A stretch of 64,000 nucleotides of DNA from Bacteroidaceae bacterium (lineage in GTDB: Bacteria > Bacteroidota > Bacteroidia > Bacteroidales > Bacteroidaceae): positions 43,994 to 107,993 of the forward strand of contig JAFXVN010000013.1 in the NCBI GenBank assembly GCA_017524545.1. The letters run 5' to 3'. The position numbers were made by a program, and so were the translations under genes. The notes beneath the pieces are model-generated. The model was not told where the DNA came from. It did not search any database and saw nothing but the letters and a program-made list of their open reading frames with translations. Below are positions 1 to 12,228 of this stretch, one piece after another. Every line of letters begins with the position of its first letter. Position 1 is the stretch's first letter.

Positions 1-1307
1 ACCATAGCAGCAGCAGCAAGGAAAGCACACTGCAACAAGGGCATAATGCCGAGAGCAGAGACAACAATCATGGCAAGCATAATGGCTGTAGAAACGAGTG
101 TGCCATAACCGATGTTGGGCACGTCGTCCGAGTCGAAGAATTGGAGGTCGTTCTTCAGGGACGTGGTGTCAATCTTATAATGACTCGGGTATATCAACAG
201 TAACGTGTCGCCTGCCTCCAGTATCACCTTGCGCGGTGCCTCGTTGATGCGCTTGCCGCGACGGGCAACAGCGGCAACCATCAGGTTGTTGTCCTTCTCG
301 AAGGTAGTTTCGGCGATGCTACGGCCGATGAGACTGCTGCCAAAGTTGACGTAAGCTGTGCGTACCTGCCTGTTCATATCTACCTCGCTCATAGAGAAGA
401 CATGGTGGTCGGCAGCAACAAGCTTGTGACTTACTGCCATCTCGTAAATCTCGTCTATCTGTCCGGCATAAACCAGATGGTCGCCACCCATGATATACTC
501 TTCCTCCGAGATAGGCGACGGAACATCATCGAAGTGGTACATCTCTATCAGACTGCCACCCTTGACGTGGAAGAGACCAGCTTCGGCCAGCGTCATACCG
601 ATGTAGGGATTGTCCGATGGCACACGCAACTCAACGGTATATTCCGATGTGGCTTCGAATGCTGATTCCGGTGCCTTTCTGTCAGGAAGCAGGCGACGCA
701 TAGCAATGACAGAGAGCACCCCAATGAACAGGCAGAACAATCCGGGGATGGTCGTGGCCAACACGTTCATGGCTTGGCCAGTATGCTCTTCGTAGAGTCC
801 GCTGATAATCAGGTTCGGCGGCGTACCGATAAGCGTACAGACACCGCCCATGCCAGAAGCATAGCTCAGGGGTATGAGCAGTTTGGATGGCGAGACACCG
901 AGTTTCTTAGCCCACATCTTAACGATTTTCACGAAAAGGGCTACAACGGTGGTGTTGCTGAGAAACGAGCTGAGGAAGGCGACTGGTAACATCAGTCGGG
1001 TGACCGCCTTTGCGTAACTGTTAGGCTGTCCCAGCAAATACTTCACCATACAATGCAGCACACCTGTATGCATCAGTCCGGCAACCACTACGAACAGCAC
1101 ACCAACGGTAATGACAGACGTTCCGCTAAAGCCAGAGAAGGCTTCCTTGGCATCGAGCACACCCGTTACAAACAGGATGCCTATAGCACAGAGGAACACC
1201 CAATCAGAGCGCAACTTGGTAAACAGCAGGACACTGAACATGCCCAGCACCGTCACTATGGTAATCCAGGCATCAAGGCCGAAGCCTAAAAGCATGAATG
1301 ATTCCAT
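1..1307 (-). CDS. SLC13 (DASS) family permease with RCK_C domains, C-terminus outside window
   Basis: Inner-membrane transporter of the sodium/dicarboxylate-sulfate (SLC13) type. I translated it from the ATG at 1307; about 435 codons lie in the window and the frame runs off the left edge. The N-terminal half is hydrophobic and carries the family's SNTT signature and a GTPPNL loop. It is followed by two soluble stretches resembling TrkA_C/RCK_C domains, ending in phrases such as EAGDTLLLIYP, and then a return to membrane segments. The substrate (dicarboxylate, sulfate or other anion) cannot be told from sequence. It starts 13 nt after the alarmone hydrolase stop, so it is probably the last gene of that operon. 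RCK_C domains bind small nucleotides in some transporters; a link to the alarmone genes is inference. Confidence 0.85.
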   Translation of the reverse strand, partial: MESFMLLGFGLDAWITIVTVLGMFSVLLFTKLRSDWVFLCAIGILFVTGVLDAKEAFSGFSGTSVITVGVLFVVVAGLMHTGVLHCMVKYLLGQPNSYAKAVTRLMLPVAFLSSFLSNTTVVALFVKIVKMWAKKLGVSPSKLLIPLSYASGMGGVCTLIGTPPNLIISGLYEEHTGQAMNVLATTIPGLFCLFIGVLSVIAMRRLLPDRKAPESAFEATSEYTVELRVPSDNPYIGMTLAEAGLFHVKGGSLIEMYHFDDVPSPISEEEYIMGGDHLVYAGQIDEIYEMAVSHKLVAADHHVFSMSEVDMNRQVRTAYVNFGSSLIGRSIAETTFEKDNNLMVAAVARRGKRINEAPRKVILEAGDTLLLIYPSHYKIDTTSLKNDLQFFDSDDVPNIGYGTLVSTAIMLAMIVVSALGIMPLLQCAFLAAAAM

Positions 1308-1320
1308 TTCTTATATTTAC

Positions 1321-1896
1321 TTAATTAAATACTTTATTTATCAGCCCTTCGAACTCTTTATAGGCAAAGGTGTCGCGGAGTTCGATGAGCGATGCGGCGA
1401 GGCCTCGGTAGTGCCATTTGTGGTCACTGCGGTCTTTGGCGTGAAAGAGGTTCCAGAGCTTGTCGCCCTGTACGGCATAGTCGCGGGCAATGGCTCGCAT
1501 ATTGGAGAGCTTGTCGCCCAAAGCCACCATCTTTGCATCGCGCGGGGCAGAGGCTATGCGGTCTATGGCTGCCTGCTTCCGGGCACGCCAGCCTTCAAGA
1601 CTGTACTCGCCCTGATGCGGTTCGTCGCTCTCTATAGCCACAAGCGAAGCGATGCGGTCGCCAAACTCGGCGCAAATCTGCTCCAAGGTGACATCGGTAT
1701 CCTCCACCGTATCATGCAGGGCTGCGGCTGCCAAAAGTTCCTGGTCGGAAGTCATTGTGGCCACAATCTCCACAGCCTCTAAGGGATGCACAATATACGG
1801 GAAGCCCTTGTCTCGGCGCTCTGTCCCTGCATGGGCACGGACAGCAAACACGATGGCACGGTCAAGCAGTTCTGTATCTAAAGGTTTGTTTCCCAT
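1321..1896 (-). CDS. small alarmone hydrolase (MESH1-like HD-domain protein)
   Basis: A 191-residue protein made almost wholly of one HD hydrolase domain of the RelA/SpoT hydrolase and MESH1 type, expected to remove the 3' pyrophosphate of (p)ppGpp or a related nucleotide. The metal and catalytic residues are visible: His22 in AHAG, His37 in IVHP, His61-Asp62 in ALHDTVEDTD with Glu65-Asp66, and Asp128 in GDKLSN. The ALHDTVEDTD stretch is very close to that of animal MESH1. It begins 12 nt after the stop of the alarmone synthetase, so synthesis and breakdown are encoded side by side. In some toxic synthetase systems (toxSAS) a hydrolase of this type acts as antitoxin; whether this pair behaves that way is unknown. 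Confidence 0.88.
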   Translation of the reverse strand: MGNKPLDTELLDRAIVFAVRAHAGTERRDKGFPYIVHPLEAVEIVATMTSDQELLAAAALHDTVEDTDVTLEQICAEFGDRIASLVAIESDEPHQGEYSLEGWRARKQAAIDRIASAPRDAKMVALGDKLSNMRAIARDYAVQGDKLWNLFHAKDRSDHKWHYRGLAASLIELRDTFAYKEFEGLINKVFN

Positions 1897-1908
1897 GGTC
1901 TTAATGTC

Positions 1909-2976
1909 TTACTGATTCTTCTGCATGAACGGCAACGTCTCGGCCTGCTCAAGCATCATTTCGGCCAATACGCCATTGGCTTCGGATTCGCCATTGATGG
2001 TGTCGAAGATGAACCTCAGCCCCTCTCGCCCGCCATCGTGCTTCAGCACATAGACCATGCAGAGGTACTGCAAGGCTGTGCTGGAAGAAAGAATGTCGAG
2101 GTCGGTAACAGCCAACTGGGTGAGGGCCAGTTGGTAGGCATCCTCACCGTTCTCTTCCATAAAGCGCTGCACGTCGCCGAGTGTTTCCATTCCGAAGGAT
2201 TCCAAAACAGGCAGGAATGGCATCATGGACACAGGATAAATCTCGGCCTGATTGACGGCAGCAATGCGCTTGTTCAGATAGTCGAAGTGATTCTGTTCTA
2301 TAAAGTCGCGGAACGACTCTAACGAGAGTGGCACTTCGTCGAGCTGCCCGCTCTTCACAAGCGACTGGATTTGGCGACGATAGTCTGTCAGCTCCTGTCG
2401 GAGGCGGCTGAACTCGTCGTCGATGAGTTCCAGCATACCTGCCAATCGGCTGAACTGCCGTTTGTACTTGCGAGGAATTTTTACAACGCCCTTGTAGCCG
2501 GTGTCGTGCTCGATGGTGGACCAAACGTGCTGTAGGGCTGTACGCATCTGTAGCTCAAAGCGCGGGCCGCCTGTCTTGAGACGACAGATATAATGCAGCG
2601 AGTTGTAGCCGAAGGCATCAAGCTGGTGTAGCTTGCGTTTATCGACGCTCTCCTGCCAGTCGATGTCGAAGATGCGCTTGGCAATAACCGCCACCTTATC
2701 GACATCGTCTGTGTAGAAGGTGATAACACGCATCCCGACAAGGTCTGTCACGTCGTCGATGCTCTTGTACTTGGCTCCCTTCAATTCCAGCTTCCCTGCC
2801 AGCGACTGCTCGGTCTTGACGCGGTGCTCGATGGCGGTGACGTAGATGCCCTGCTCTGCAAGAGCTTGGCGCAGAAGGTCGTAAGCCTGCTGGGACAGCT
2901 GTTCCAACGTGGGACGCAGGTCGCGGTACTGCTGTAAGAGTGCTTCGCCGTGCTGGTCTAAATTGACTTTTTTCAT
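1909..2976 (-). CDS. small alarmone synthetase (RelA/SpoT synthetase domain) with a long C-terminal extension
   Basis: A 355-residue protein with a RelA/SpoT nucleotide pyrophosphokinase domain in residues about 45-165 and no HD, TGS or ACT domain. Visible motifs are HRVKTEQSL (51-59), DLVGMRVI (78-85), GYNSLHY (123-129), FELQMRT (140-146) and TIEHDTGYK (154-162). These match the G-loop, metal-binding and catalytic regions of RelP/RelQ-type enzymes that transfer pyrophosphate from ATP to GTP or GDP. The C-terminal 190 residues are helical-looking and I do not recognise them; RelP and RelQ are only about 210-230 residues, so the extension is notable. Its ATG overlaps the stop of the STAS gene and the hydrolase follows 12 nt later, indicating translational coupling. 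A tRNA-targeting toxSAS activity cannot be excluded. Confidence 0.87.
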   Translation of the reverse strand: MKKVNLDQHGEALLQQYRDLRPTLEQLSQQAYDLLRQALAEQGIYVTAIEHRVKTEQSLAGKLELKGAKYKSIDDVTDLVGMRVITFYTDDVDKVAVIAKRIFDIDWQESVDKRKLHQLDAFGYNSLHYICRLKTGGPRFELQMRTALQHVWSTIEHDTGYKGVVKIPRKYKRQFSRLAGMLELIDDEFSRLRQELTDYRRQIQSLVKSGQLDEVPLSLESFRDFIEQNHFDYLNKRIAAVNQAEIYPVSMMPFLPVLESFGMETLGDVQRFMEENGEDAYQLALTQLAVTDLDILSSSTALQYLCMVYVLKHDGGREGLRFIFDTINGESEANGVLAEMMLEQAETLPFMQKNQ

Positions 2977-3275
2977 TTGAACTCGAAGAGGTTAATGAAG
3001 CCCGTCATGGCGAAGACGGCACGGACGCTGTCGGAGATGCCACGGACATAGACGTGGTCGCCCTTGGGCTTGACACTCTTCAAGACACTAAGGAAGATGC
3101 GAAGCCCTGCCGACGAGATATACTCCAATTGCGAACAGTCGAGGATGATGTTTCGACCAGCACTCTCTTTCAGAGGTGCTACCGCCTTCTCTGCCTCTGG
3201 AGCAGCAGCCGTGTCAAGGCGACCCTCAAAATACATTACCAATTCGTTGTTCTCTTCTTTTAATGTTGTATTCAT
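2973..3275 (-). CDS. STAS-domain anti-anti-sigma-like protein
   Basis: A 100-residue single STAS domain of the SpoIIAA/RsbV class. The phosphoacceptor loop is clear: DCSQLEYISSAGLR at residues 46-59, with Ser54/Ser55 where SpoIIAA carries its regulatory serine. Such proteins are switched by phosphorylation and bind a kinase or partner only in one state. The gene sits 152 nt downstream of the phosphatase/kinase gene, which carries both enzyme activities needed for the switch, and overlaps the start of the alarmone synthetase. No sigma factor is encoded nearby, so the usual sigma-release target is absent from the window. Confidence 0.9.
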   Translation of the reverse strand: MNTTLKEENNELVMYFEGRLDTAAAPEAEKAVAPLKESAGRNIILDCSQLEYISSAGLRIFLSVLKSVKPKGDHVYVRGISDSVRAVFAMTGFINLFEFK

Positions 3276-3292
3276 ATTGTTATTTTTTTTTT

Positions 3293-3408
3293 GGAGTTAT
3301 AATTAGAAGTTATAATGGGGAGTTATAATCTGGAGTTATAAGGAGCCGATACATTTGGCCCATCATAACTTCCCATTTTAACTCCTCTTCATAACTTCAT
3401 ATAATTGA
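3293..3408. repeat. short direct and inverted repeats between phosphatase and STAS genes
   Basis: Four copies of a GAGTTATAA or AAGTTATAA unit lie at 3293-3343, followed at about 3363-3408 by the complementary sense (CATAACTT, TTAACTCC, ATAACTTC). The two halves could pair into a long imperfect hairpin in the message between the phosphatase and STAS coding regions. It resembles other intergenic repeats in this window. A role in tuning expression of the downstream genes is possible but unproven. Confidence 0.6.
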
Positions 3409-3427
3409 ACATTTCCCCTTTCACCTT

Positions 3428-5779
3428 TTAACTCTTTATCCTTTTCACCAGCGTCAGCACGTTGCGTCCTTCTATATACTCGTAGTTTATGCTATCCATA
3501 ATCTGGCGGATGAGGTGTATGCCAAGTCCGCCGATACTTCGCTCCTCAGCAGAAAGATTGGTATCCACCTCTGCCGTGGTCGTGGGGTCGAAGGGCGTAC
3601 CGTTATCGCTGATGACAAACTTCAATTCCTTGTCGGTGATAGTGGCATCAATGCTCACCACCCCTTTGACATTCTTGGGATATGCGTAGTTCATGACGTT
3701 GACGACAGCCTCCTCTATGGCAAGGTTCATTTGCATAGACAAACCCATGTCGAAGCCCGCTGCCTCACAAACTGTTTCGACGAACTCTGACAACTTTGGA
3801 ATCGTCTGCACATCGTTGGGCAGGGTGATGCTGCGCTGATAGCGGATGTTTTGCTGTTGATGTTTATATTGCAAAGCCAACATGGTCAGGTCGTCGCTCT
3901 GCTGGGCTTCACCCACGAACCGATGCACAGCCTCGGTCATAGCCTCGATAATCTGTTTGGGTTCGTGCGATGCCTGCTTTATGACATCAAAGATGCGCTG
4001 CTCTTGGAACTGCCCATGCTCGATGTCCTCTGCCTCTGTCAGTCCGTCGGTATAGAGGAAGATAGTGGTCCAGGGGTCGATGGTCGTTTCTTGCAAAGTA
4101 TATTTCCACCCTTCCATAACACCAACAGGGATATTCGCATCGCAAGGCAACAGCCCTGCCCCACTGCCTATCAGTATGGGTGCATCGTGACCAGCGTTGC
4201 AGTAGCGCATACGTCCCGTCGGCATATCCAGCACACCGACGAAAAGCGTAACAAACATGTCCGATTCGTTGTTTGCCGACATCGTCTCGTTCATATCCGT
4301 AATTATACGGTCTGGCATGACCTCGTGAAAAGCGACAGCACGGAACAGCGTACGAGTGACGGCCATGACCAGCGCAGCAGGAACGCCTTTGCCCGAGACA
4401 TCGCCGATGCAGAAGAAGAGCTTCTCGTCGCGCATAAAGAAGTCGAAGAGGTCGCCGCCAACCTCCTTGGCAGAGACGAGCTGGCCGTAGATGTCTATGT
4501 CGTCGCGTTCGGGATAAGGCGGGAAGACCTTGGGCAGCATGGCCATCTGTATGCCAGTTGCTATGCGGAGGTCGCTCTCTATCGAGGCTTTTTGGGCAGT
4601 GGTTTCCTTCAGCTCTTCAATATATTTTACGAGCGACTTCTGCATGTCGGCGAATGACTTGCTCAGCTGGCCTATCTCGTCAATGCGCTTCAGTTCTGGC
4701 AGCCGCGCATCGAACTGGCCTGAGGCAATGGTCTCTGCTTCGCTGGCAAGCCGCTGCAAAGGGTTTAACTCGCGCGAGATGATGCGGATGAAGAAGTAGA
4801 GCATCAACAACAAGCCCACCAGCACAATGGCCCTAACGCTGTAGCGCAGACGCTGAAAGCCGCCAAATATGTCGCTTTCGGGGCAGACGATGGCCATCGA
4901 GCAGCCCGTCTTACCGAGAGGTTTGTAGAAGACATAACATTTCATGCCGTCCATGTTCATCTGCTTCATGCCTTCCTCGCCGCGCTGCATGGCATGTCCA
5001 AGGGCGGTCAGGGCCGTGTCGGGTTGCTCCATGGATTGCGTAAAGATGGTTTGGCGGGTGATTTTTGTCGTGTCGGGATGCACGAAGTAGGTGCCGCCAC
5101 GACCAATCATGATGCTGTAGGAATTGGGATAGGGCTTAACAGCCGAGATGGTCTGCGAGAGCCAGCTGATGGATAGGCCGGTGTTGATGACGCCAATGAC
5201 GTGCCCTTCGTCGTCCTTGATGGCTTGGCAGTAGCTCGTCACCATCTCGCTGGTGTTGGTGGGAACGTCCACATCGACGTATGGTTCCGTCCAGCAGGGA
5301 TGGTCGAGCAGCGTGGGCATCAGGTACCAGTCCATGTAGAAATACTGGTAGTTGTCGTTGCCGCCTTGAATGGTGCGGATGCTGTCGCCAATGTGCTTTG
5401 AATACGCCGAGAAGTAACGGCCTTTATCCTTGAAGTAGTAAGGCTCGAAGGCGATGGAGCAGTTGTAGAAGTCGGGATTGTTGAGCAACATGCCTCGGCT
5501 ATAGACGAACATCGAGTCTGCTACATCGGGATGCCGCTGAACGAGCCACTCGGTCATGCTTGTAGCCACCTCCACGCGGTTCAGAATGCTCTCCACGAAC
5601 AGCGAAGTCTTGTCCAGCGTTTGCATGGCACGGCTGATGGCTTCCTGACGCACAGCTTCGCGAGCCTGAATGAACAGGAATCCCAGAGCCACATTGAAGA
5701 TAATGGCAGCAAACAAGACCACCCAAAGGCTGACCTTGACCGAAAGCTTACGCCGGAAATATGTTAAGACCCTATTCAT
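3428..5779 (-). CDS. membrane sensor with PP2C-type (SpoIIE) phosphatase and HATPase kinase domains
   Basis: A 783-residue inner-membrane signalling protein. Order: membrane helix (about 16-38), extracytoplasmic dCache-like sensor region (40-310), second helix (316-333), HAMP (334-388), SpoIIE/RsbU-type phosphatase (about 410-635) and a C-terminal RsbW-like ATPase (about 650-783). Phosphatase metal ligands are seen in GGDLFD (441-446), GDVSGKG (459-465), YTDGLTE (576-582) and QSDDLTM (627-633). The ATPase has an N-box (EEAVVNVMNYAY), SDNGTPFDP and GGLGIHL. One protein therefore carries both the activity that would phosphorylate and the one that would dephosphorylate the adjacent STAS protein. 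The STAS, synthetase and hydrolase genes lie downstream on the same strand. The ligand is unknown; an orphan periplasmic binding protein is encoded just upstream. Confidence 0.9.
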   Translation of the reverse strand: MNRVLTYFRRKLSVKVSLWVVLFAAIIFNVALGFLFIQAREAVRQEAISRAMQTLDKTSLFVESILNRVEVATSMTEWLVQRHPDVADSMFVYSRGMLLNNPDFYNCSIAFEPYYFKDKGRYFSAYSKHIGDSIRTIQGGNDNYQYFYMDWYLMPTLLDHPCWTEPYVDVDVPTNTSEMVTSYCQAIKDDEGHVIGVINTGLSISWLSQTISAVKPYPNSYSIMIGRGGTYFVHPDTTKITRQTIFTQSMEQPDTALTALGHAMQRGEEGMKQMNMDGMKCYVFYKPLGKTGCSMAIVCPESDIFGGFQRLRYSVRAIVLVGLLLMLYFFIRIISRELNPLQRLASEAETIASGQFDARLPELKRIDEIGQLSKSFADMQKSLVKYIEELKETTAQKASIESDLRIATGIQMAMLPKVFPPYPERDDIDIYGQLVSAKEVGGDLFDFFMRDEKLFFCIGDVSGKGVPAALVMAVTRTLFRAVAFHEVMPDRIITDMNETMSANNESDMFVTLFVGVLDMPTGRMRYCNAGHDAPILIGSGAGLLPCDANIPVGVMEGWKYTLQETTIDPWTTIFLYTDGLTEAEDIEHGQFQEQRIFDVIKQASHEPKQIIEAMTEAVHRFVGEAQQSDDLTMLALQYKHQQQNIRYQRSITLPNDVQTIPKLSEFVETVCEAAGFDMGLSMQMNLAIEEAVVNVMNYAYPKNVKGVVSIDATITDKELKFVISDNGTPFDPTTTAEVDTNLSAEERSIGGLGIHLIRQIMDSINYEYIEGRNVLTLVKRIKS

Positions 5780-5793
5780 TCTCTTTTCTATTA

Positions 5794-5934
5794 AACCACG
5801 AATTACACTAATTACTCTAAATTCTCTTTCTCTACAACGGATTACACGGATTTCACGGATTTATTTCTCTCACACAGAAAGCATGGGAAGTCATTCGTGT
5901 AATTAGTGTAATTAGTGGTTTCAAATCTTATCCG
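5794..5934. repeat. inverted repeat with ACGGATT-type direct repeats
   Basis: A 22-bp arm at 5794-5815 recurs inverted at 5899-5920 with one mismatch; both arms are built from repeats of AATTACACTAATTAC. Between and beside them lie repeats of ACGGATTTCACGGATT type and their complements (about 5836-5862 and 5928-5942). The block occupies most of the space between the binding-protein gene and the sensor gene. It looks like a Bacteroidetes intergenic repeat element rather than a gene. Confidence 0.65.
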
Positions 5935-5951
5935 TTCAATCCGTTGTTCTT

Positions 5952-6917
5952 TTATTTTCCATTATCAATTAGTTCTTCGTACGTTATTTCGCGGTTCAGC
6001 ATCTGGTATTCTGCCATCAGGCGGCTTGCCAGTTCCACCATGTCGGGGCGCAGGCGGAACTCGCGCTGCTTCGATTCGCGGTCCACTTGCAGACGCAGCA
6101 CCTCCTGGAGCATCAGCCGCTGCATCACGCGGTTGGTGGCAATGTGGTCCTTATCGACATACGCCATGACGATGTCCAATGCCTCTTCGGGATGTTCTGC
6201 TGCCCATTCCCAACCCTTACGGCTGGCCTCGGCAAATTTCTTGGCCTGTTCACGGTGCTGCTCGTAGTAGCTCCGCGTCACATAGACGCCGTCCTCCTGC
6301 ACGTTGTAGCCGTGGTCGCAGAAGCGATAGACGTTCTTATCCGTCATCTCTACGCCAGCCTGCACCAGCTGGTAGTATTCGTTGTAGCTCATGGCAAGCG
6401 TGGCATCGAGAGCGCCGGAGACAAACAGGTTGATATTCTGGGCAAAACGCACCCATTGGTAATCTAAATGGTCCTTATGGTTCATGCAGATAGCCAACTG
6501 TCCGAAGCCTACGCTCCAAATGCCCACACGCGCGCCCCGTTGCGCCAATGGGTTCTTGCCGCGTGCCGAGACAATGACCATTGCGTTGTTCATCGATGTT
6601 TGCAGGATGTTCACCAACGGTATGCCGCCATCCACAATCTCCAAAGCCTGGCAGAGCTGTAGCGTCGTGGCTTGGCACAGGTTCTGGCGCAGACGGCTCA
6701 TGGCGGGCTGTGTGGTCTTGGGATGCTCTATCCTCACCTCCACGCCAGCCTCGCGGTAGAAGCCCAGATGCTCTGCTACATAGTAGCCAGCAAACTGCGC
6801 TTGCGCCGTCCACTGGGGCGTGAAGACGATGGTCTCGTCCTGTGCTGCCACCTGCTGAACCATGCCGACGCAGAGCATCAATATGACGATGGGAATTCGT
6901 TTCAAAGTGTGTTTCAT
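5952..6917 (-). CDS. NMT1/THI5-like (SsuA-type) periplasmic substrate-binding protein, orphan
   Basis: A 321-residue exported protein of the NMT1/THI5/SsuA binding-protein family, which normally delivers pyrimidines, sulfonates or similar compounds to an ABC transporter. I chose ATG 6917 rather than the in-frame ATG at 6944: it begins a good signal peptide ending around VAAQ, while the earlier one lies inside the patatin gene. Family features include TPQWTAQAQFAGYYVAEHLG near the mature start and the GIWSVGF region. No permease or ATPase gene is nearby. It lies 11 nt downstream of the patatin gene and 172 nt upstream of the sensor phosphatase on the same strand, so a role as a ligand-capturing partner of the sensor is possible (inference). 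Confidence 0.8.
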   Translation of the reverse strand: MKHTLKRIPIVILMLCVGMVQQVAAQDETIVFTPQWTAQAQFAGYYVAEHLGFYREAGVEVRIEHPKTTQPAMSRLRQNLCQATTLQLCQALEIVDGGIPLVNILQTSMNNAMVIVSARGKNPLAQRGARVGIWSVGFGQLAICMNHKDHLDYQWVRFAQNINLFVSGALDATLAMSYNEYYQLVQAGVEMTDKNVYRFCDHGYNVQEDGVYVTRSYYEQHREQAKKFAEASRKGWEWAAEHPEEALDIVMAYVDKDHIATNRVMQRLMLQEVLRLQVDRESKQREFRLRPDMVELASRLMAEYQMLNREITYEELIDNGK

Positions 6918-6927
6918 GCCATTACTC

Positions 6928-9204
6928 TCAGAACTCAAATCCAAGGTTCAGGTAAAAATATGGTTTCTTCGTGCGGTTGCTGTAACCGAATGTTGCTCCT
7001 ACAGGACCAAAGAGCGTGCTGAAGTAATAGGCGCCCTGAACGCCGATCAGTGTCCTGTTCTTGAACAGCTCATTCAGTTTTTCGGCCTGCTGCGCACCGG
7101 CAACGCGGAGCTGGACATAGTGCTTGGAGGCTATGCGCAGCTGTGCCTGAAGCTGTGCTGCGACAAACTGCTTGTTGACATACTCGATGTAGCCGATGCC
7201 GGCAAAGGGCATCTGTTGTTCAAGGTAATGGCCGAACCATTCACCGCCCACCATATTGCCGAAGACGGGGGGGACAACGTCGCCGAGAAGCAGACGCCCA
7301 TATACCATTGGCTGGATGACGAAGCGGCGGCCTATCCCGAACGACTCGCGCCAGTTGGCACTGATATCGCTCATGCCGGTCTTGCCATCGAGCTTTATGA
7401 AATTGTCTGTCAGGTAGGCATACTCCGCTTTGAAGCGGGTGCCACGTGTGGGGAAGTACCAGTCGTCCTCGCTGTTATAGTTGATGCGGGCACGATAACT
7501 GTAGAAGTGCTCGTTTTTGAGCGCGTTGCCGGACGATTCGTTCGACGCTAGCTTGTCGTGATAGTGCATGTAGTCCCATCGCAAACCAGCCTGGAAGTTG
7601 AAGTGGCGGAAGTCGAAGTTGATGGGTATGGCCTCTGCCTTGGACTGGGTGTAAAGAACGCTGTAGTCGCGGCCGCCACGGAGATAGACATCTATATCGT
7701 TGCGCCAGAAAGTGTAGCTGATTGTGGGACGGGTGAAACTGCGGGGATGGACGGTAAGCTCGCCACGCGCCATGATGCGCTTGCCCAACCGCACGGTTAT
7801 GTCGGTGTTCATCGGCACGGCTGTCTTCATCGGGATGTCAAGCCCTAACTGGACTGCGGCATACTCTTCCGAATCAAAGCGGAAGCCTGCATAAACCTGC
7901 GCCGACTTGCGGTCGCCAGCCGTGAGGACAACACGCACTCCGTCGCCCTCTGGCACCAAGCGGCACTCTGCGGTCTTATAGAAGAGGTCGATGCGCATGG
8001 ATGTCGTGAGTTGCTGCTCCAGCTTGGCATCGATGCTGTCCGTCTTCTGCAAGTGGAACTTCTGGCTGAGGAAACGCTCGTCCTGCGGTGTCATGTTCTC
8101 GAACGTATAGCCCGACACACGCTGACGTGCACTCAGCACCTGCGGACGTAGGGGTTGCAGGATGGTGGGCTGGAACGATTCGTCGATGCCGATGCGCTTC
8201 TTCAGGGCTATCAACTCGTCCCAATGGGACATAGCCTCTTCCTCACCACGGCGGATGAGCGTGTCTATGGCAGCCGGCGTGAAGCTTGCCGAACCGTAGC
8301 CTGTCGTGTTCACACGGATAGCCACGTCGGTAATGGCGAGATTATCGTCGTACTTGTTCTTACAGTTCACATCGACTATCTGGCTCAGGACACCCATCGT
8401 GCCTTTAATGTCGTCGGCGGTCTTCGGCGCACCCTGCACAGTGACGCCGATGATGATGTCGGCCCCCATCTCGCGTGCAATGTCCGCAGGATAGTTGTTT
8501 TTCAAGCCGCCATCGACCAGCAGCATGTCGCCAAGCCTGACAGGAGCGAAGGCAGCAGGAATGGCCATCGAAGCACGCATGGCCTGTGGCAGCCGCCCGC
8601 TGTGGAAATCGACCTCGCTGTTGTCGATGATGTTCGTTGCCACACAAGCAAATGGGATTTTCAAGTCACGGCTGAAGTCGAGGGAGTCTGTATAGCCTGT
8701 GCAGAGCTGCCCGAACAGTTCGGCAAGGTTCTTGCCCTTGATGATGCCGGCATCGCTGGATTTGTTGGATTTGTGTTTACCCAGGATGATGCTTGTCGTC
8801 AGGGGATAGGTATATTGTTTGCGGCGGTCTGCGAGGCTCTGGTTGCGCAGGTCTTCCTTGTCGGTGATGACGTAGCCCCAGTCCAATGTGCGCACTGTCG
8901 AGTCGAGCACATTGGCATTGTAGCCAATGGCATACAGACCGCCAATGATGCTGCCCATCGATGTGCCGGTTACGATGTCAACTGGAATGCCAGCACGCTC
9001 CAGCACCTTCAGCGCTCCGATATGCGCCATGCCCTTCGCGCCGCCGCCGCTGAGCACAACGGCCACCTTCTTCCTGTCTCTGACATTGTCCTGCTCGGCA
9101 CTCGCTGAATGGAAAGGGAAAAAGGTGAACAGGGAAAACAGGAAAACATTCAGCACCAGCATCCTTTTCCCCATAACTTCCTTATATTTATCTTTTCCGT
9201 TCAT
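6928..9204 (-). CDS. patatin-like phospholipase with C-terminal outer-membrane barrel
   Basis: A 758-residue exported protein. After a signal peptide (ending near SASA, residue 36) comes a patatin domain with the oxyanion loop GGGAKG (53-58), the nucleophile elbow GTSMG (Ser82) and the DGG of the Ser-Asp dyad (231-233). The middle resembles a POTRA-like region, and the C-terminal half has the alternating beta pattern of BamA/TpsB-type barrels, ending in NLGFEF with the terminal Phe expected for outer-membrane proteins. This is the PlpD-like (type Vd) layout of lipase displayed by its own barrel. An alternative start at 9174 is preceded by AAGGAAG and begins directly at the signal peptide, so the true start may be 10 codons later. 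folD lies 42 nt upstream. Confidence 0.88.
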   Translation of the reverse strand: MNGKDKYKEVMGKRMLVLNVFLFSLFTFFPFHSASAEQDNVRDRKKVAVVLSGGGAKGMAHIGALKVLERAGIPVDIVTGTSMGSIIGGLYAIGYNANVLDSTVRTLDWGYVITDKEDLRNQSLADRRKQYTYPLTTSIILGKHKSNKSSDAGIIKGKNLAELFGQLCTGYTDSLDFSRDLKIPFACVATNIIDNSEVDFHSGRLPQAMRASMAIPAAFAPVRLGDMLLVDGGLKNNYPADIAREMGADIIIGVTVQGAPKTADDIKGTMGVLSQIVDVNCKNKYDDNLAITDVAIRVNTTGYGSASFTPAAIDTLIRRGEEEAMSHWDELIALKKRIGIDESFQPTILQPLRPQVLSARQRVSGYTFENMTPQDERFLSQKFHLQKTDSIDAKLEQQLTTSMRIDLFYKTAECRLVPEGDGVRVVLTAGDRKSAQVYAGFRFDSEEYAAVQLGLDIPMKTAVPMNTDITVRLGKRIMARGELTVHPRSFTRPTISYTFWRNDIDVYLRGGRDYSVLYTQSKAEAIPINFDFRHFNFQAGLRWDYMHYHDKLASNESSGNALKNEHFYSYRARINYNSEDDWYFPTRGTRFKAEYAYLTDNFIKLDGKTGMSDISANWRESFGIGRRFVIQPMVYGRLLLGDVVPPVFGNMVGGEWFGHYLEQQMPFAGIGYIEYVNKQFVAAQLQAQLRIASKHYVQLRVAGAQQAEKLNELFKNRTLIGVQGAYYFSTLFGPVGATFGYSNRTKKPYFYLNLGFEF

Positions 9205-9217
9205 ATTTCCATCCTTT

Positions 9218-9249
9218 ACTTTCTCACCCTTTCACCTTTTCACCTTTTA
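9218..9249. repeat. heptamer-like repeat (TTCACCT) between folD and patatin gene
   Basis: Three tandem variants of TTTCACCTT sit between the two genes and run into the last codons of folD. This is one of many short-period repeats in the window; no function is evident. Confidence 0.5.
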
Positions 9250-10122
9250 ATAATAAAGGTGTTTCCCAGCTGCAAGGGTGTTGAGCATGAGCATACAGAT
9301 TGTCATAGGCCCTACGCCGCCAGGGACAGGCGTAATGTATGAGCAGAGCGGTGCGACGTTCTCGAAGTCCACGTCACCCTGGAGGCGGAAGCCGCTCTTC
9401 TTCGTGGCATCGGGAACACGGGTTGTACCCACATCGATGACCACGGCTCCCGGCTTCACCATGTCTGCCTTCAGGAAGGATGGCTGGCCGATGGCAGCGA
9501 TGATGATGTCTGCCTGCTGGCATTCCTCCCGGAGCGTCTTACTGCGGCTATGGCAGACGGTGACTGTGCTGTCGCCATACTGCTTCTGCATCATAAGCTG
9601 TGCCATAGGCTTGCCCACAATGTTGCTGCGCCCGAGGATGACGCACTTCCGTCCGCTTGTGGGAATCTCGTAACGCTTGAGCAGCTCCAGGATGCCCTTG
9701 GGCGTTGCGCTGATGTAGCAGGGCAGACCTATTGCCATGCGCCCCACGTTGATGGGATGGAAGCCGTCCACGTCCTTGCGGTAGTCGATGGCCTCGATGA
9801 CCTTCTGTTCGCTGATGTGCTTGGGGAGAGGAAGCTGCACGATGAAGCCGTCCACCTCGGGGTCGCTATTCAATCGCGACACACAGGACAGGAGTTCCTG
9901 CTCGGTGATGTCGTCCTCGAAGCGGAGTAAGGTGCTCTGGAAGCCGCAGGCCTCGCAAGCCAACACTTTGTTGCGGACGTATGTCTCGCTGCCTCCGTCG
10001 TGCCCGACGAGGATGGCTGCCAAGTGCGGACGCTTGCCGCCGCGAGCCACGATGTCCTCTACCTCTGCCTTAATCTCTGCCTTGATGGTGGCAGCCGTCT
10101 GTTTTCCGTCTATCAATTGCAT
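9247..10122 (-). CDS. folD: bifunctional methylenetetrahydrofolate dehydrogenase/cyclohydrolase FolD
   Basis: A 291-residue cytoplasmic enzyme that interconverts 5,10-methylene-, 5,10-methenyl- and 10-formyl-tetrahydrofolate using NADP. The catalytic Tyr48-x3-Lys52 pair is present in [15 protein letters not shown], along with the [12 protein letters not shown] loop, the dinucleotide-binding GRSNIVGKP and the family signature [11 protein letters not shown] near the C-terminus. Length and motifs are those of standard FolD. It lies downstream of ffh with a repeat-filled 112-nt spacer, and its last codons run into a TTCACCT repeat. Confidence 0.96.
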
Positions 10123-10138
10123 AAAAGACCCTCTCTAA

Positions 10139-10222
10139 CTCTCCCTTAAAGGGAGAGGACATAAAATTACCAAATAATCAAATTGTAAATAAATTGTAAA
10201 TCGTAAATCGTTAAATTGTAAA
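10139..10222. repeat. G-rich hairpin plus AAATTGT heptamer repeats between ffh and folD
   Basis: A perfect hairpin (CTCTCCCT and AGGGAGAG around TAA, 10139-10157) with an additional pyrimidine-rich arm just before it, then five or so tandem variants of AAATTGT/AAATCGT (about 10176-10222). The hairpin architecture recurs at 20287-20308 and, inside a coding region, at 59230-59258. The heptamers recur inside wecB. Confidence 0.7.
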
Positions 10223-10234
10223 TGAAACAGATGG

Positions 10235-11572
10235 TTAGAATGGTGCCCGTCCTTTCATCATGGCGGCCATCTGCTGCATTTTGTTCTTGTCTGTCACCAG
10301 TTTCATCATCTTGCGCGTCTGGTCGAACTGCTTAATGAGCCGATTCACCTCCTGTACGTTCGTACCCGAACCCTTGGCAATGCGCATACGGCGACTGGTG
10401 TTGAGGCACTCGGGGTGTGTCCTCTCCTTGGGAGTCATACTGAGAATGATGGCCTCAATGTTCTTGAAGGCATTGTCGTCGATGTCCATGTCCTTGATGG
10501 CTTTGCCCACGCCAGGTATCATGCCGGCCAAGTCCTTCAGGTTGCCCATCTTCTTGATTTGCTGAATCTGCTTGTAGAAGTCGTTGAAGTCGAACTGGTT
10601 CTTCTGAATCTTCTTCTCTAAGCGGCGGGCTTCCTCCTCGTCGTACTGCTCCTGCGCCCTCTCCACGAGCGACACGATGTCGCCCATGCCGAGGATGCGG
10701 TCGGCCATACGGCTGGGGTGGAAGGGGTCGAGGGCTTCCATCTTCTCGCCTGTGCCAACGAACTTGATGGGCTTATTCACGACGCTGCGGATGCTAAGTG
10801 CCGCACCGCCTCGGGTATCACCGTCGAGCTTGGTGAGGATGACACCCGTATAGTCGAGACGGTCGTTGAACACCTTCGCCGTGTTGACGGCATCCTGGCC
10901 GGTCATGGCATCCACGACGAAGAGGATTTCGTCGGGCTGCACGGCATCGCGGATGTCCTGAATCTGCTGCATCAGCTCCTCATCGACGGCCTGACGGCCT
11001 GCGGTATCGATGATGAGCACATCGTGTCCCTTCGCTTTCGCGTGCTGGATGGCATTCTTGGCCACAAGGACAGGGTCTGTGGCGCCTTCCTCCATATAGA
11101 CAGGCACTCCTACCTGCTCGCCAAGCACACGCAGCTGCTCCATAGCAGCGGGGCGGAAGGTGTCGCAGGCGGCCAACAGGGGATTCTTGCTTCGCTTCTC
11201 GTGCAGGAGTTTTGCCAGCTTGCCGCTCATGGTGGTCTTACCCGCACCGTTCAAGCCTGCCATGAGGATGATGGCGGGGTGTCCCTTGAGGTTCATGTCG
11301 GTGGTCTCGCCACCCATAAGCTCGGTCAGCTCGTCGTGAACAATCTTCACCATCAGCTGCTGTGGCTTGATGGCGGTCAGGACATTTTGCCCCAGTGCCT
11401 TCTGCTTGACGGTGTCGGTGAAGGTTTTCGCCACTTTGTAGTTGACATCGGCATCGAGCAAGGCACGACGCACGTCCTTCAGCGTCTCTGCAACATTGAT
11501 TTCGGTGATTTTGCCTTCACCTTTCAGAATCTTGAACGACCTCTCAAGCCGTTCACTTAAGTTCTCAAACAT
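10235..11572 (-). CDS. ffh: signal recognition particle GTPase Ffh
   Basis: A 445-residue SRP54 homologue that binds 4.5S RNA and signal sequences and guides ribosomes to FtsY at the membrane. The order is normal: N domain, G domain with AGLNGAGKTT (P-loop), DTAGR and TKLDGDTRGG, then the methionine-rich M domain ending MAAMMKGRAPF. The P-loop has Asn-Gly-Ala where most bacteria have Gln-Gly-Ser, a mild variant. The gene is preceded by the small hydrolase gene with a 65-nt spacer of ACCATTTA repeats. Confidence 0.97.
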   Translation of the reverse strand: MFENLSERLERSFKILKGEGKITEINVAETLKDVRRALLDADVNYKVAKTFTDTVKQKALGQNVLTAIKPQQLMVKIVHDELTELMGGETTDMNLKGHPAIILMAGLNGAGKTTMSGKLAKLLHEKRSKNPLLAACDTFRPAAMEQLRVLGEQVGVPVYMEEGATDPVLVAKNAIQHAKAKGHDVLIIDTAGRQAVDEELMQQIQDIRDAVQPDEILFVVDAMTGQDAVNTAKVFNDRLDYTGVILTKLDGDTRGGAALSIRSVVNKPIKFVGTGEKMEALDPFHPSRMADRILGMGDIVSLVERAQEQYDEEEARRLEKKIQKNQFDFNDFYKQIQQIKKMGNLKDLAGMIPGVGKAIKDMDIDDNAFKNIEAIILSMTPKERTHPECLNTSRRMRIAKGSGTNVQEVNRLIKQFDQTRKMMKLVTDKNKMQQMAAMMKGRAPF

Positions 11573-11576
11573 CTAT

Positions 11577-11612
11577 AATTTACCATTTAATCATTTAACC
11601 ATTTACCATTTA
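11577..11612. repeat. ACCATTTA heptamer-like repeats upstream of ffh
   Basis: Tandem variants of ACCATTTA / TCATTTAA fill the short space before the ffh start. Read on the other strand they are AAATGGTAAATGG, the same word found in frame in wecB at 46621-46655 and in the hisG leader near 23670-23697. Confidence 0.6.
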
Positions 11613-11637
11613 TCTACATCGAAAGGCAGATATGTCT

Positions 11638-12228
11638 TTAGATGTTTATAATTCTCTCGACCAGTGGCATGACGACGTGGCTCAGCACTTTGTCGTTGAG
11701 GAAGTGTTCGCCGTCGAAGAGCTGCATCTGCTCCTTGCCGTAGTGTTTCAGGAAGTCAGCCTGGCAGTTGACGAGCTTGTCCTGCGTGCCGAAGAGTCCC
11801 CAGACGCTGGACTTCTCCTCCGGGGTGATGCCCTTGAAGCTGTCCTTCTCCACCTGCTGGAAAGCCTGTATCATCGCCTTATCGACCTTGAACTCCGTCT
11901 GTCCGTCCTGCCGCTTATTACGGAACTCGCGCCGCCCCATCCCCCGGAAGGTCAGCAACCGAGCCATGTGGAAGGATGGGTTGACCAATATCCTCTTCAC
12001 GCCCCTGAGCTGTTCGCCATAGAGCGCGCCCATGCTGGTAGCGACGATAAGGTCGGGCTGCTCCTTTTCCACCAGTGCCTTCAGGAAGGCAATGGCCTCC
12101 AATGGGTCAACAGGCACGTCGGGACTTACCACCTGCCCCCCTTTCGGGTAGAGGTGGTTGCGCATCTGCGTGGCGGAGCCTGTACTGCCCGCAGAGGCAA
12201 AGCCATGTATGTAGAGCACTTTTTTCAT
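11638..12228 (-). CDS. YqiA/YcfP-like alpha/beta hydrolase
   Basis: A 196-residue alpha/beta-fold hydrolase of the YqiA/YcfP (UPF0227-like) group. It starts with the strand-loop LYIHGFASAGS (oxyanion region). The nucleophile elbow is ATSMGA, an acidic residue lies in FGTQDKLV, and the histidine is in DGEHFLND. Such proteins are cytoplasmic esterases of poorly known substrate. A TACCTTTG promoter box lies only 6 nt upstream of the ATG, so the message may have almost no leader. Likely co-transcribed with ffh. Confidence 0.82.
   Translation of the reverse strand: MKKVLYIHGFASAGSTGSATQMRNHLYPKGGQVVSPDVPVDPLEAIAFLKALVEKEQPDLIVATSMGALYGEQLRGVKRILVNPSFHMARLLTFRGMGRREFRNKRQDGQTEFKVDKAMIQAFQQVEKDSFKGITPEEKSSVWGLFGTQDKLVNCQADFLKHYGKEQMQLFDGEHFLNDKVLSHVVMPLVERIINI

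Follow-up and report, generated by a model that had tools for sequence, protein, structure and literature searches.

A minus-strand gene cluster at the start of the window (a 64,000-nucleotide stretch of DNA from a Bacteroidaceae bacterium, a Prevotella-like gut bacterium) encodes the parts of a partner switch beside a small alarmone synthetase (SAS) and a small alarmone hydrolase (SAH), and suggests a so far undescribed way to turn on the (p)ppGpp stress signal. Partner switching is known as a control of sigma factors and has been described in a few cases for c-di-GMP cyclases. The best explanation for the cluster, towards which we lean modestly, is a switch with the SAS as its output instead of a sigma factor. 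If true, this would give gut and rumen bacteria a direct link from extracytoplasmic sensing to the stringent response, and would provide a small testable protein set for the post-translational regulation of a small alarmone synthetase.

The sequence-only reading had described five minus-strand genes, for a sensor, a STAS protein, an SAS, an HD hydrolase and a permease, and open reading frames and Pfam searches gave the same coordinates, strands and domains. The spacing was also borne out: the STAS and SAS genes overlap by 4 nt, the gaps from SAS to HD and from HD to permease are 12 and 13 nt, and a 152-nt spacer with repeats separates the sensor gene from the STAS gene. That description had overlooked a sixth gene on the same strand, 172 nt upstream of the sensor gene, which encodes an NMT1/THI5-like periplasmic binding protein (about 5952..6917, minus strand; Pfam NMT1, 1.8e-26) with a signal peptide-like N-terminus; an alternative TTG start at 6944 is possible. 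Relatives of this probable ligand-presenting protein lie on the same strand near 42 of the 106 SAS loci described below.

The membrane sensor (3428..5779, minus strand) contains, by Pfam, a PDC/Cache domain (5156-5491), a HAMP domain (4628-4783), a PP2C/SpoIIE phosphatase domain (3866-4429; SpoIIE, 1e-48) and an RsbW-like HATPase_c_2 kinase domain (3443-3820; 2e-24), with hydrophobic stretches around residues 19-37 and 317-335. The PP2C and kinase motifs are largely kept in 46 relatives, and only two HATPase_c_2 proteins were found in the genome (92% complete) at E 0.001. The spacer (3276..3427, minus strand) contains 13-nt tandem repeats of the GGAGTTATAA type and an imperfect inverted repeat of 49 nt; a consensus scan found no terminator-like site in it, and an Rfam search over bases 1-12000, the spacer included, returned nothing at the gathering threshold.

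The STAS-only switch protein (2973..3275, minus strand) is of the RsbV/SpoIIAA type (Pfam STAS, 2.4e-16; TIGR00377 over its cut-off). Its Ser55 (codon 3111-3113, minus strand) aligns with the serine preceding S/T-G in SpoIIAA and RsbV, which we take to be the residue phosphorylated in those proteins, and the position is serine in 60/60 aligned STAS proteins; Ser55 is thus the predicted phosphorylatable serine. By Pfam domains and motifs, a PP2C phosphatase, a HATPase_c_2 kinase and a STAS protein are encoded together, as in the classical RsbUVW/SpoIIAA-AB partner switch. The absence of a sigma factor, claimed earlier, holds for the SigB/F/G type: TIGR02980 gave 11 matches in the 92% complete genome, none over the cut-off and the best at 113 of 234 bits.

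The SAS (1909..2976, minus strand) has a RelQ/RelP-like core, as indicated by Pfam (RelA_SpoT, 6e-18; residues 51-163, 2488-2826), PDB profiles (2be3, 2e-19; RelQ/YjbM, 1e-17; RelP (6ewz), 3e-17; CapRel, 1e-3) and a Foldseek search with its AF2 model. It scored 55.9 of 320 bits against the YjbM (RelQ) equivalog, below the cut-off, and has in Pfam a RelA_SpoT domain without HD, TGS or ACT domains, which corresponds to the definition of an SAS. The catalytic-core residues are conserved in the alignment, and the protein probably synthesizes an alarmone. Two further RelA_SpoT proteins are encoded in the genome, in 752- and 827-aa frames. The stand-alone HD_4 protein (SAH, MESH1-like; 1321..1896, minus strand; Pfam HD_4, 1.6e-18) carries the H, HD and ED motifs, the HD motif residues being conserved in 67 aligned proteins, and matches the PDB entries 4yf1, 7qoc, 3nr1 and 5vxa (MESH1). 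Together, the two enzymes probably make and destroy (p)ppGpp. The last gene encodes an SLC13/CitMHS permease with TrkA_C domains (1..1307, minus strand, continuing beyond base 1; Pfam CitMHS, 6e-39, plus TrkA_C); it extends 490 nt outside the window to a full length of 598 aa (full frame in L241).

To compare neighbourhoods, we assembled 116 SAS loci (L034-L149), of which 10 were dropped as duplicates by SAS sequence, leaving 106; counts over 109 loci leave out L065-L069, whose SAS is distant. A STAS gene lies within 7.5 kb of the SAS gene in 65 of 109 loci (within 5.5 kb in 58/106) and directly upstream of it in 59. For 52 pairs among these 59 the gap lies between -4 and +48 nt; the remaining seven overlap more owing to over-long start calls by the script. 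An SAH gene is near in 74/109 loci, a count that includes a weak HD match 7.3 kb off (L144) and excludes an HD-SAS fusion (L112). No STAS gene is near in 44/109 loci, 39 of them with at least 3 kb on both sides; incompleteness of the metagenome-assembled genomes (MAGs) blurs such absences. Across 139 genomes of the genus, with strand ignored, 23 of 31 SAS places have, within 7 kb, a STAS that is at least 50% identical, 24 of the 25 small HD hydrolases with 63% identity or more are near an SAS, and SAS, HD, STAS and permease occur together at 15/31 places, with the sensor seen in fetched loci. One list of relatives reaches down to about 32% identity.

The cluster also recurs reshuffled and re-fused. 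In one locus (L103) the order is HD, lone kinase, STAS, SAS and response-regulator PP2C; in a second family (L189-L191) it is kinase, Cache-PP2C, STAS, SAS and a fused HD-APH, and three more families (L188, L194, L195) have switch, SAS and SAH in other arrangements. Divergent synthetases (45% and 28-29% identity; L064, L065) also adjoin a kinase domain and STAS. Four loci (L040, L041, L049, L084) count against the switch reading, as they keep PP2C and STAS with no kinase nearby. Our survey of the order matched 18 of 393 genomes, our own included, nine with a full-length SAS and nine with just the core; the fetched set comprised 16 of the other 17 genomes, G467 being left out. Six of the eight full-length loci from other families have the switch, and profile searches found no switch gene near the core-only SAS in eight fetched loci, two of them on contigs under 4 kb. 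In the phylum survey 13/395 genomes matched, our own included; the other 12 were all fetched and no switch was found nearby. The annotation shown for three phage or plasmid relatives, from a Mycobacterium prophage (L242), Cetobacterium (L243) and Bacteroides finegoldii (L244), contains no switch genes. The neighbourhood recurs beyond chance. Because it does so in reshuffled and re-fused form, without a SigB-type sigma factor, a functional link between the switch and the alarmone enzymes is likely.

The permease appears less tightly bound to this neighbourhood. Neither it nor the binding protein was found in L103 or in the fetched stretches from four other families of the order that have switch, SAS and SAH. 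We regard the permease as an accessory part, because the stretches fetched for the eight full-length other-family SAS loci yielded none and because, of 73 STAS genes, 17 have a permease but no SAS nearby. These 73 STAS genes (at least 50% identity, 139 genus genomes) also speak for a different reading, in which the target of the switch is the SLC13/RCK permease or is unlinked, and SAS and SAH make up a separate unit within one shared transcription unit: 23 are near an SAS, 17 near a permease only and 33 near neither (one at 53%, from G137, among the last), and in one locus (L151) STAS lies between two permeases with no SAS found. With 50/73 not near an SAS, a sensor-STAS unit is common without SAS, which is a counterpoint to the SAS as target. 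For the permease set, 71 of the 73 rows were used, the second pieces of two genes being omitted. In 14 loci, moreover, permease divergence follows that of STAS (0.57) and sensor (0.55) more than that of SAS (0.30). On the other side, six of the eight full-length loci with no permease in their fetched stretches have the switch, no permease was found in L103, L064 or L065 although kinase, STAS and SAS are there, and on the STAS tree permease linkage changes at least 21 times versus at least 12 for SAS linkage, in a set gathered via SAS that leans towards SAS. We therefore judge the permease or an unlinked target unlikely, though worth keeping in mind.

The divergence of the proteins points to the synthetase. 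In the main clade (32 loci), SAS distances correlate with those of STAS (rho 0.66) and sensor (0.75), each above 500/500 shuffles, and barely with those of the HD hydrolase (0.24); physical linkage alone can yield such co-divergence, and by linkage the immediate neighbour would be expected to co-diverge more strongly than the hydrolase does. With STAS directly upstream in 59/65 loci, and with SAS distances tracking those of STAS and sensor and barely those of the hydrolase, the synthetase is favoured over the hydrolase as the probable STAS target. The opposite arrangement, in which STAS controls the hydrolase or the sensor kinase receives feedback from the alarmone, could draw on the SAH being near in 23/23 SAS-near STAS of the genus, but SAH adjoins SAS in just 37 of 74 loci and diverges in weak correlation with STAS (0.23), and we find this arrangement highly improbable.

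The proposal that STAS controls the alarmone level directly, made earlier with the C-terminal extension of the SAS as one possible docking site, gains support in part: a functional link is likely, and binding through that extension in particular is not supported. The C-terminal helical domain (residues 205-355, 1912..2364, minus strand) is as well conserved in SAS without a STAS neighbour as in those with one, STAS-free loci showing no added relaxation, and therefore need not be a STAS dock. Searches gave it no clear relative by family or structure (Pfam showed no tetratricopeptide match, Foldseek and VIA nothing clear); a prophage relative, with no switch genes in its annotated stretch, aligns to the SAS up to residue 276. 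This conservation independent of STAS would also suit a link that is transcriptional or metabolic only, with one operon answering one signal and no contact between switch and alarmone enzymes, as would the overlapping or tightly spaced genes and the permease, binding protein and kinases that also join the cluster. However, partner switches act via protein contact, as established for the systems of SigB and SiaC, and among the loci studied, which were gathered via SAS, SAS is the most constant of the candidate targets; such a contact-free link seems rather unlikely to us.

SAS and SAH could also be a toxic-synthetase/antitoxin or anti-phage pair that sits in a signalling operon by chance. SAHs often accompany toxic synthetases, according to the part of the source consulted (PMC9765508), relatives were seen in phages and on a plasmid that carries phage genes, and there is a weak match to PADLOC PDC-S33 (46 bits). 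Against this, the nearest solved relatives of the synthetase are of the RelQ/RelP type, with CapRel much weaker; a close SAH was not found in 6/30 SAS-bearing genus genomes, with the caveat of MAG incompleteness; the linkage and the divergence of SAH vary separately from those of SAS; and SAH is fused once to SAS (L112) and in four loci to an APH-like domain. We consider such a pair quite unlikely. The main toxSAS survey is that of Jimmy and colleagues (PNAS 2020).

Returning to the switch with the SAS as output, we infer the regulatory step as follows. The sensor would read a periplasmic signal through its Cache domain, perhaps after delivery by the NMT1-type protein; its kinase domain would phosphorylate STAS on Ser55 and its PP2C domain would remove the phosphate. 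In one state, most likely the unphosphorylated one as for SiaC, STAS would bind the SAS, and (p)ppGpp or a related nucleotide would be made; phosphorylation would release STAS, and the HD hydrolase would hold basal alarmone low and reset the signal. That STAS is phosphorylated, that it touches the SAS and activates instead of inhibiting it, which nucleotide results and what the signal is are all inferred. Direct STAS control of the SAS is, on gene order and divergence, marginally the side we would take, and if control is direct, activation by unphosphorylated STAS is fairly probable by analogy. More tentatively, and with rather less than even confidence, we propose that alarmone partner switches form a family found across several Bacteroidales families. 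In these switches STAS phosphorylation would be set by a periplasmic signal and STAS would directly turn the SAS on or off, giving a (p)ppGpp route independent of the ribosome and of long RSH proteins; SAH and kinases of the TIGR02172 type would be additional components. For TIGR02172, no paper was found in the literature searched.

The literature searched does not bring "small alarmone synthetase" and "STAS domain" together, the listed papers that join partner switching, ppGpp, PP2C and STAS concern SigB, the titles and abstract openings listed show no alarmone-output switch, and a STAS-only review (PMC8256260) does not mention ppGpp, alarmone or diguanylate. The closest analogue would be SiaABCD of Pseudomonas aeruginosa, which controls c-di-GMP synthesis and where, in the portions consulted, a STAS-like protein whose phosphorylation depends on a PP2C phosphatase and a kinase controls an enzyme that makes a guanine-nucleotide messenger (PMC8457831, PMC7647112). 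The STAS-type proteins BgrV, HsbA and SiaC are described there as controlling diguanylate cyclases (PMC8457831), and HsbA is also tied, in the excerpt consulted, to sigma-factor control through RpoS (PMC6482189). Judged from the genes alone, our locus shares the phosphatase/kinase pair, the STAS-like protein and the adjacent guanine-nucleotide messenger enzyme. It differs in its output, a RelA/SpoT-type synthetase plus hydrolase instead of a diguanylate cyclase (RelA_SpoT takes the place of GGDEF, for which Pfam gave no match among the five proteins), in a canonical STAS protein where SiaC is a DUF1987 protein, and in having phosphatase and kinase on one polypeptide; the SiaA equivalog (NF038263) gave 89.6 bits against a cut-off of 700. 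With RsbU-RsbV-RsbW and SpoIIE-SpoIIAA-SpoIIAB it has in common the PP2C, the HATPase_c_2 kinase and a STAS with the conserved serine, whereas here the kinase is fused to the phosphatase, alarmone enzymes are attached and no SigB/F/G sigma factor exceeds the cut-off. Treponema denticola has an SAS with a C-terminal domain (DsRel, SAS-TPR) plus a separate SAH, the DsRel domain being a TPR that brakes synthesis, as far as the text consulted goes (PMC10434055); our SAS has no TPR match, and STAS is absent from that text. The SAS shares with RelQ/RelP the catalytic core and fold common to such synthetases but adds a C-terminal helical domain of about 150 residues of unplaced fold, and the SAH resembles MESH1-like hydrolases in its HD_4 domain and HD motif residues but is encoded with the SAS and at times fused to it or to an APH-like domain.

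In the 3.6 Mb genome (85 contigs), every gene of the cluster in the window is encoded on the minus strand. The 783-aa sensor (3428-5779) carries two hydrophobic segments and, by Pfam, PDC/Cache, HAMP, SpoIIE-type PP2C and HATPase_c_2 kinase domains, the PP2C and kinase motifs being largely conserved among 46 relatives. It is followed by the STAS switch protein (100 aa, 2973-3275), which overlaps by 4 nt the small alarmone synthetase (SAS, 355 aa, 1909-2976), a RelA_SpoT core with an extension, and then by an HD protein of the small alarmone hydrolase (SAH)/MESH1 kind (191 aa, 1321-1896) and a permease (CitMHS and TrkA_C, 1..1307) whose end lies beyond the window. A sixth gene, 172 nt upstream of the sensor, encodes an NMT1-type binding protein (Pfam, about 5952-6917). 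Two kinds of repeat occur in the intergenic spacers at 3276-3427 and 5780-5951: direct repeats, which are short, and inverted repeats, which are long and imperfect. Besides the SAS, the genome encodes two RelA_SpoT proteins whose long reading frames, of 752 and 827 aa, would fit long RSHs. A 2011 RSH survey (PMC3153485) lists at least Rel and RshB for Bacteroidia.

We gathered 116 SAS loci, 106 after removal of duplicates; the relatives include 80 named loci retained from 102, mostly MAGs and many from ruminant gut, with titles naming Prevotella, Prevotellaceae, Bacteroidaceae or Bacteroidales. On the same strand within 5.5 kb, HD was present in 65 of the 106 loci (plus one HD-SAS fusion), STAS in 58, PP2C in 52, kinase in 49, the binding protein in 42, the permease in 24, Cytidylate_kin2 in 23, TIGR02172/APH in 19 and a tyrosine phosphatase in 11, while 24 had none of STAS, kinase, HD, permease and binding protein. 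Gene clustering set the families of the cluster apart: after the top nine clusters, none recurred in more than ten loci. TIGR02172/APH-like kinases, Y_phosphatase3 and Cytidylate_kin2 proteins are repeated neighbours of SAS and SAH (L034-L149), and at L112:6371-8059 the hydrolase HD and the SAS are naturally fused into a single reading frame of 562 aa that resembles a short RSH.

Among 139 genus genomes, 30 held 31 strong SAS places (E up to 1.3e-90), of which 15 had HD, STAS and permease, eight HD and STAS, and one HD; the other seven lacked all three by the criterion of close homologues, and in one of these (G003) the SAS has a lone kinase and a STAS of divergent sequence beside it. SAS occurred in 30 genomes, SAH in 25 and both in 24 (hypergeometric 2.7e-20, kinship ignored), with SAH lacking SAS in G023. 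On a quickly built SAS tree with 109 tips, linkage changes at least 17 times for STAS and at least 20 times for HD; on the STAS tree, it changes at least 12 times for SAS.

The same parts recur in varied architectures. In other families of the order, told apart by kinship codes, we found eight full-length SAS loci from five families: sensor, STAS, SAS, APH, HD and tyrosine phosphatase in L188 (Pfam for the neighbours); kinase, Cache-PP2C, STAS, SAS and a fused HD-APH in L189-L191 (Pfam for L189); Cache-PP2C, kinase, STAS, SAS and a fused HD-APH in L194 (Pfam); SAS, HD, APH, sensor and STAS in L195 (Pfam); and SAS with HD and no switch in L192 and L193 (Pfam for the L192 neighbours). An APH-like domain is thus joined to the hydrolase in four loci (L189-L191, L194). 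The switch was present in 6/8 loci and 4/5 families and the hydrolase in 8/8, and neither permease nor binding protein was found in any of the eight fetched stretches (0/8 each). Therefore, the core of the module is the switch, SAS and SAH, often plus an APH-like kinase, with the permease and binding protein added in particular lineages. The switch, SAS and HD neighbourhood described by the sequence-only reading recurs beyond its own genome, in the genus and in four other families of the order. Further orders were HD, lone kinase, STAS, SAS and response-regulator PP2C in L103, where permease and binding protein were looked for and not found; SAS (45% identical), lone kinase and STAS in L064; and kinase domain, STAS and SAS (28-29% identical) at a contig start in L065.

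SAS lies directly downstream of STAS in 59 of 65 STAS-near loci (within 7.5 kb), and HD adjoins SAS in 37 of 74 HD-near loci. In the main clade (32 loci), pairwise divergence of SAS followed that of STAS (rho 0.66) and of the sensor (0.75), both above all 500 label shuffles, and that of HD at 0.24 only, a value reached by 14 of the 500; STAS and sensor gave 0.86. Across all clades (40 loci), SAS gave 0.88 with STAS, 0.92 with the sensor and 0.62 with HD. Part of the co-divergence of SAS with STAS and the sensor could come from linkage alone. Several results speak against the proposed control of SAS by the switch, and the sensor-STAS unit is not bound to SAS: 50 of 73 STAS proteins of at least 50% identity lie away from SAS, 17 of these 50 near the permease (L150-L153 and L162 exemplify units apart from SAS). 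The window STAS is 83, 81 and 77% identical to those of G124, G032 and G075, genomes 62-86% complete in which no SAS match was found, and has a median identity of 58% to SAS-adjacent STAS proteins, most of them below these three. The C-terminal domain of SAS is equally conserved in 39 STAS-free and 65 STAS-linked proteins, and in four loci (L040, L041, L049, L084) PP2C and STAS occur with no nearby kinase. The sensors of these four keep Cache and PP2C and lack the kinase domain, and STAS and SAS still follow.

Among solved sequences, those nearest to SAS are the GTP pyrophosphokinases 2be3 (2e-19) and 3l9d (9e-19), with RelQ/YjbM at 1e-17, RelP at 3e-17 and CapRel much weaker at 1e-3, and Foldseek with the AF2 model placed B. 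subtilis SAS1 on top. The isolated C-terminal domain was predicted with confidence (pLDDT 91.9, pTM 0.88), and the predicted model had no clear match. A precedent for a regulatory C-terminal domain on a SAS is that of Treponema denticola, whose synthesis, as described in PMC10434055, is braked by a C-terminal TPR domain. Residues 10-279 of the window SAS are matched by phrog_9640, and stand-alone relatives of this SAS occur on a Bacteroides finegoldii plasmid (L244, 38% over residues 4-213) and in a Mycobacterium prophage (L242, 28% over residues 7-276), both on the strand opposite to most phage genes around them. An 864-aa protein (L196:6045-8639) with RelA_SpoT, SLOG/LSDAT-like and RyR domains is reminiscent of conflict systems.

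Position 55 of STAS, placed by alignment with SpoIIAA and RsbV, is Ser in 60/60 aligned sequences. We propose that input to the sensor would set the phosphorylation state of Ser55, that unphosphorylated STAS would bind and activate SAS, and that SAH would reset the signal; the STAS-SAS contact, its direction, the product and the signal are what we infer. The direction is proposed because SiaC, when phosphorylated, can neither bind nor activate SiaD, as stated in PMC8457831. The genome encodes two HATPase_c_2 proteins and no SigB/F/G sigma over the cut-off. On contig C65 of the same genome (L238:3773-12499), a second Cache-PP2C-kinase sensor and STAS directly precede a nonribosomal peptide synthetase-like gene (condensation, AMP-binding, PP-binding and NAD_binding_4 domains) that encodes 2131 aa or more and runs past the fetched stretch, possibly another non-sigma setting of the partner switch. 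We found no alarmone-directed partner switch in the literature searched, and within that literature the proposed alarmone output would be the new part of a scheme already known for c-di-GMP, in which partner switches acting on messenger synthases include BgrV, HsbA and SiaC (PMC8457831).
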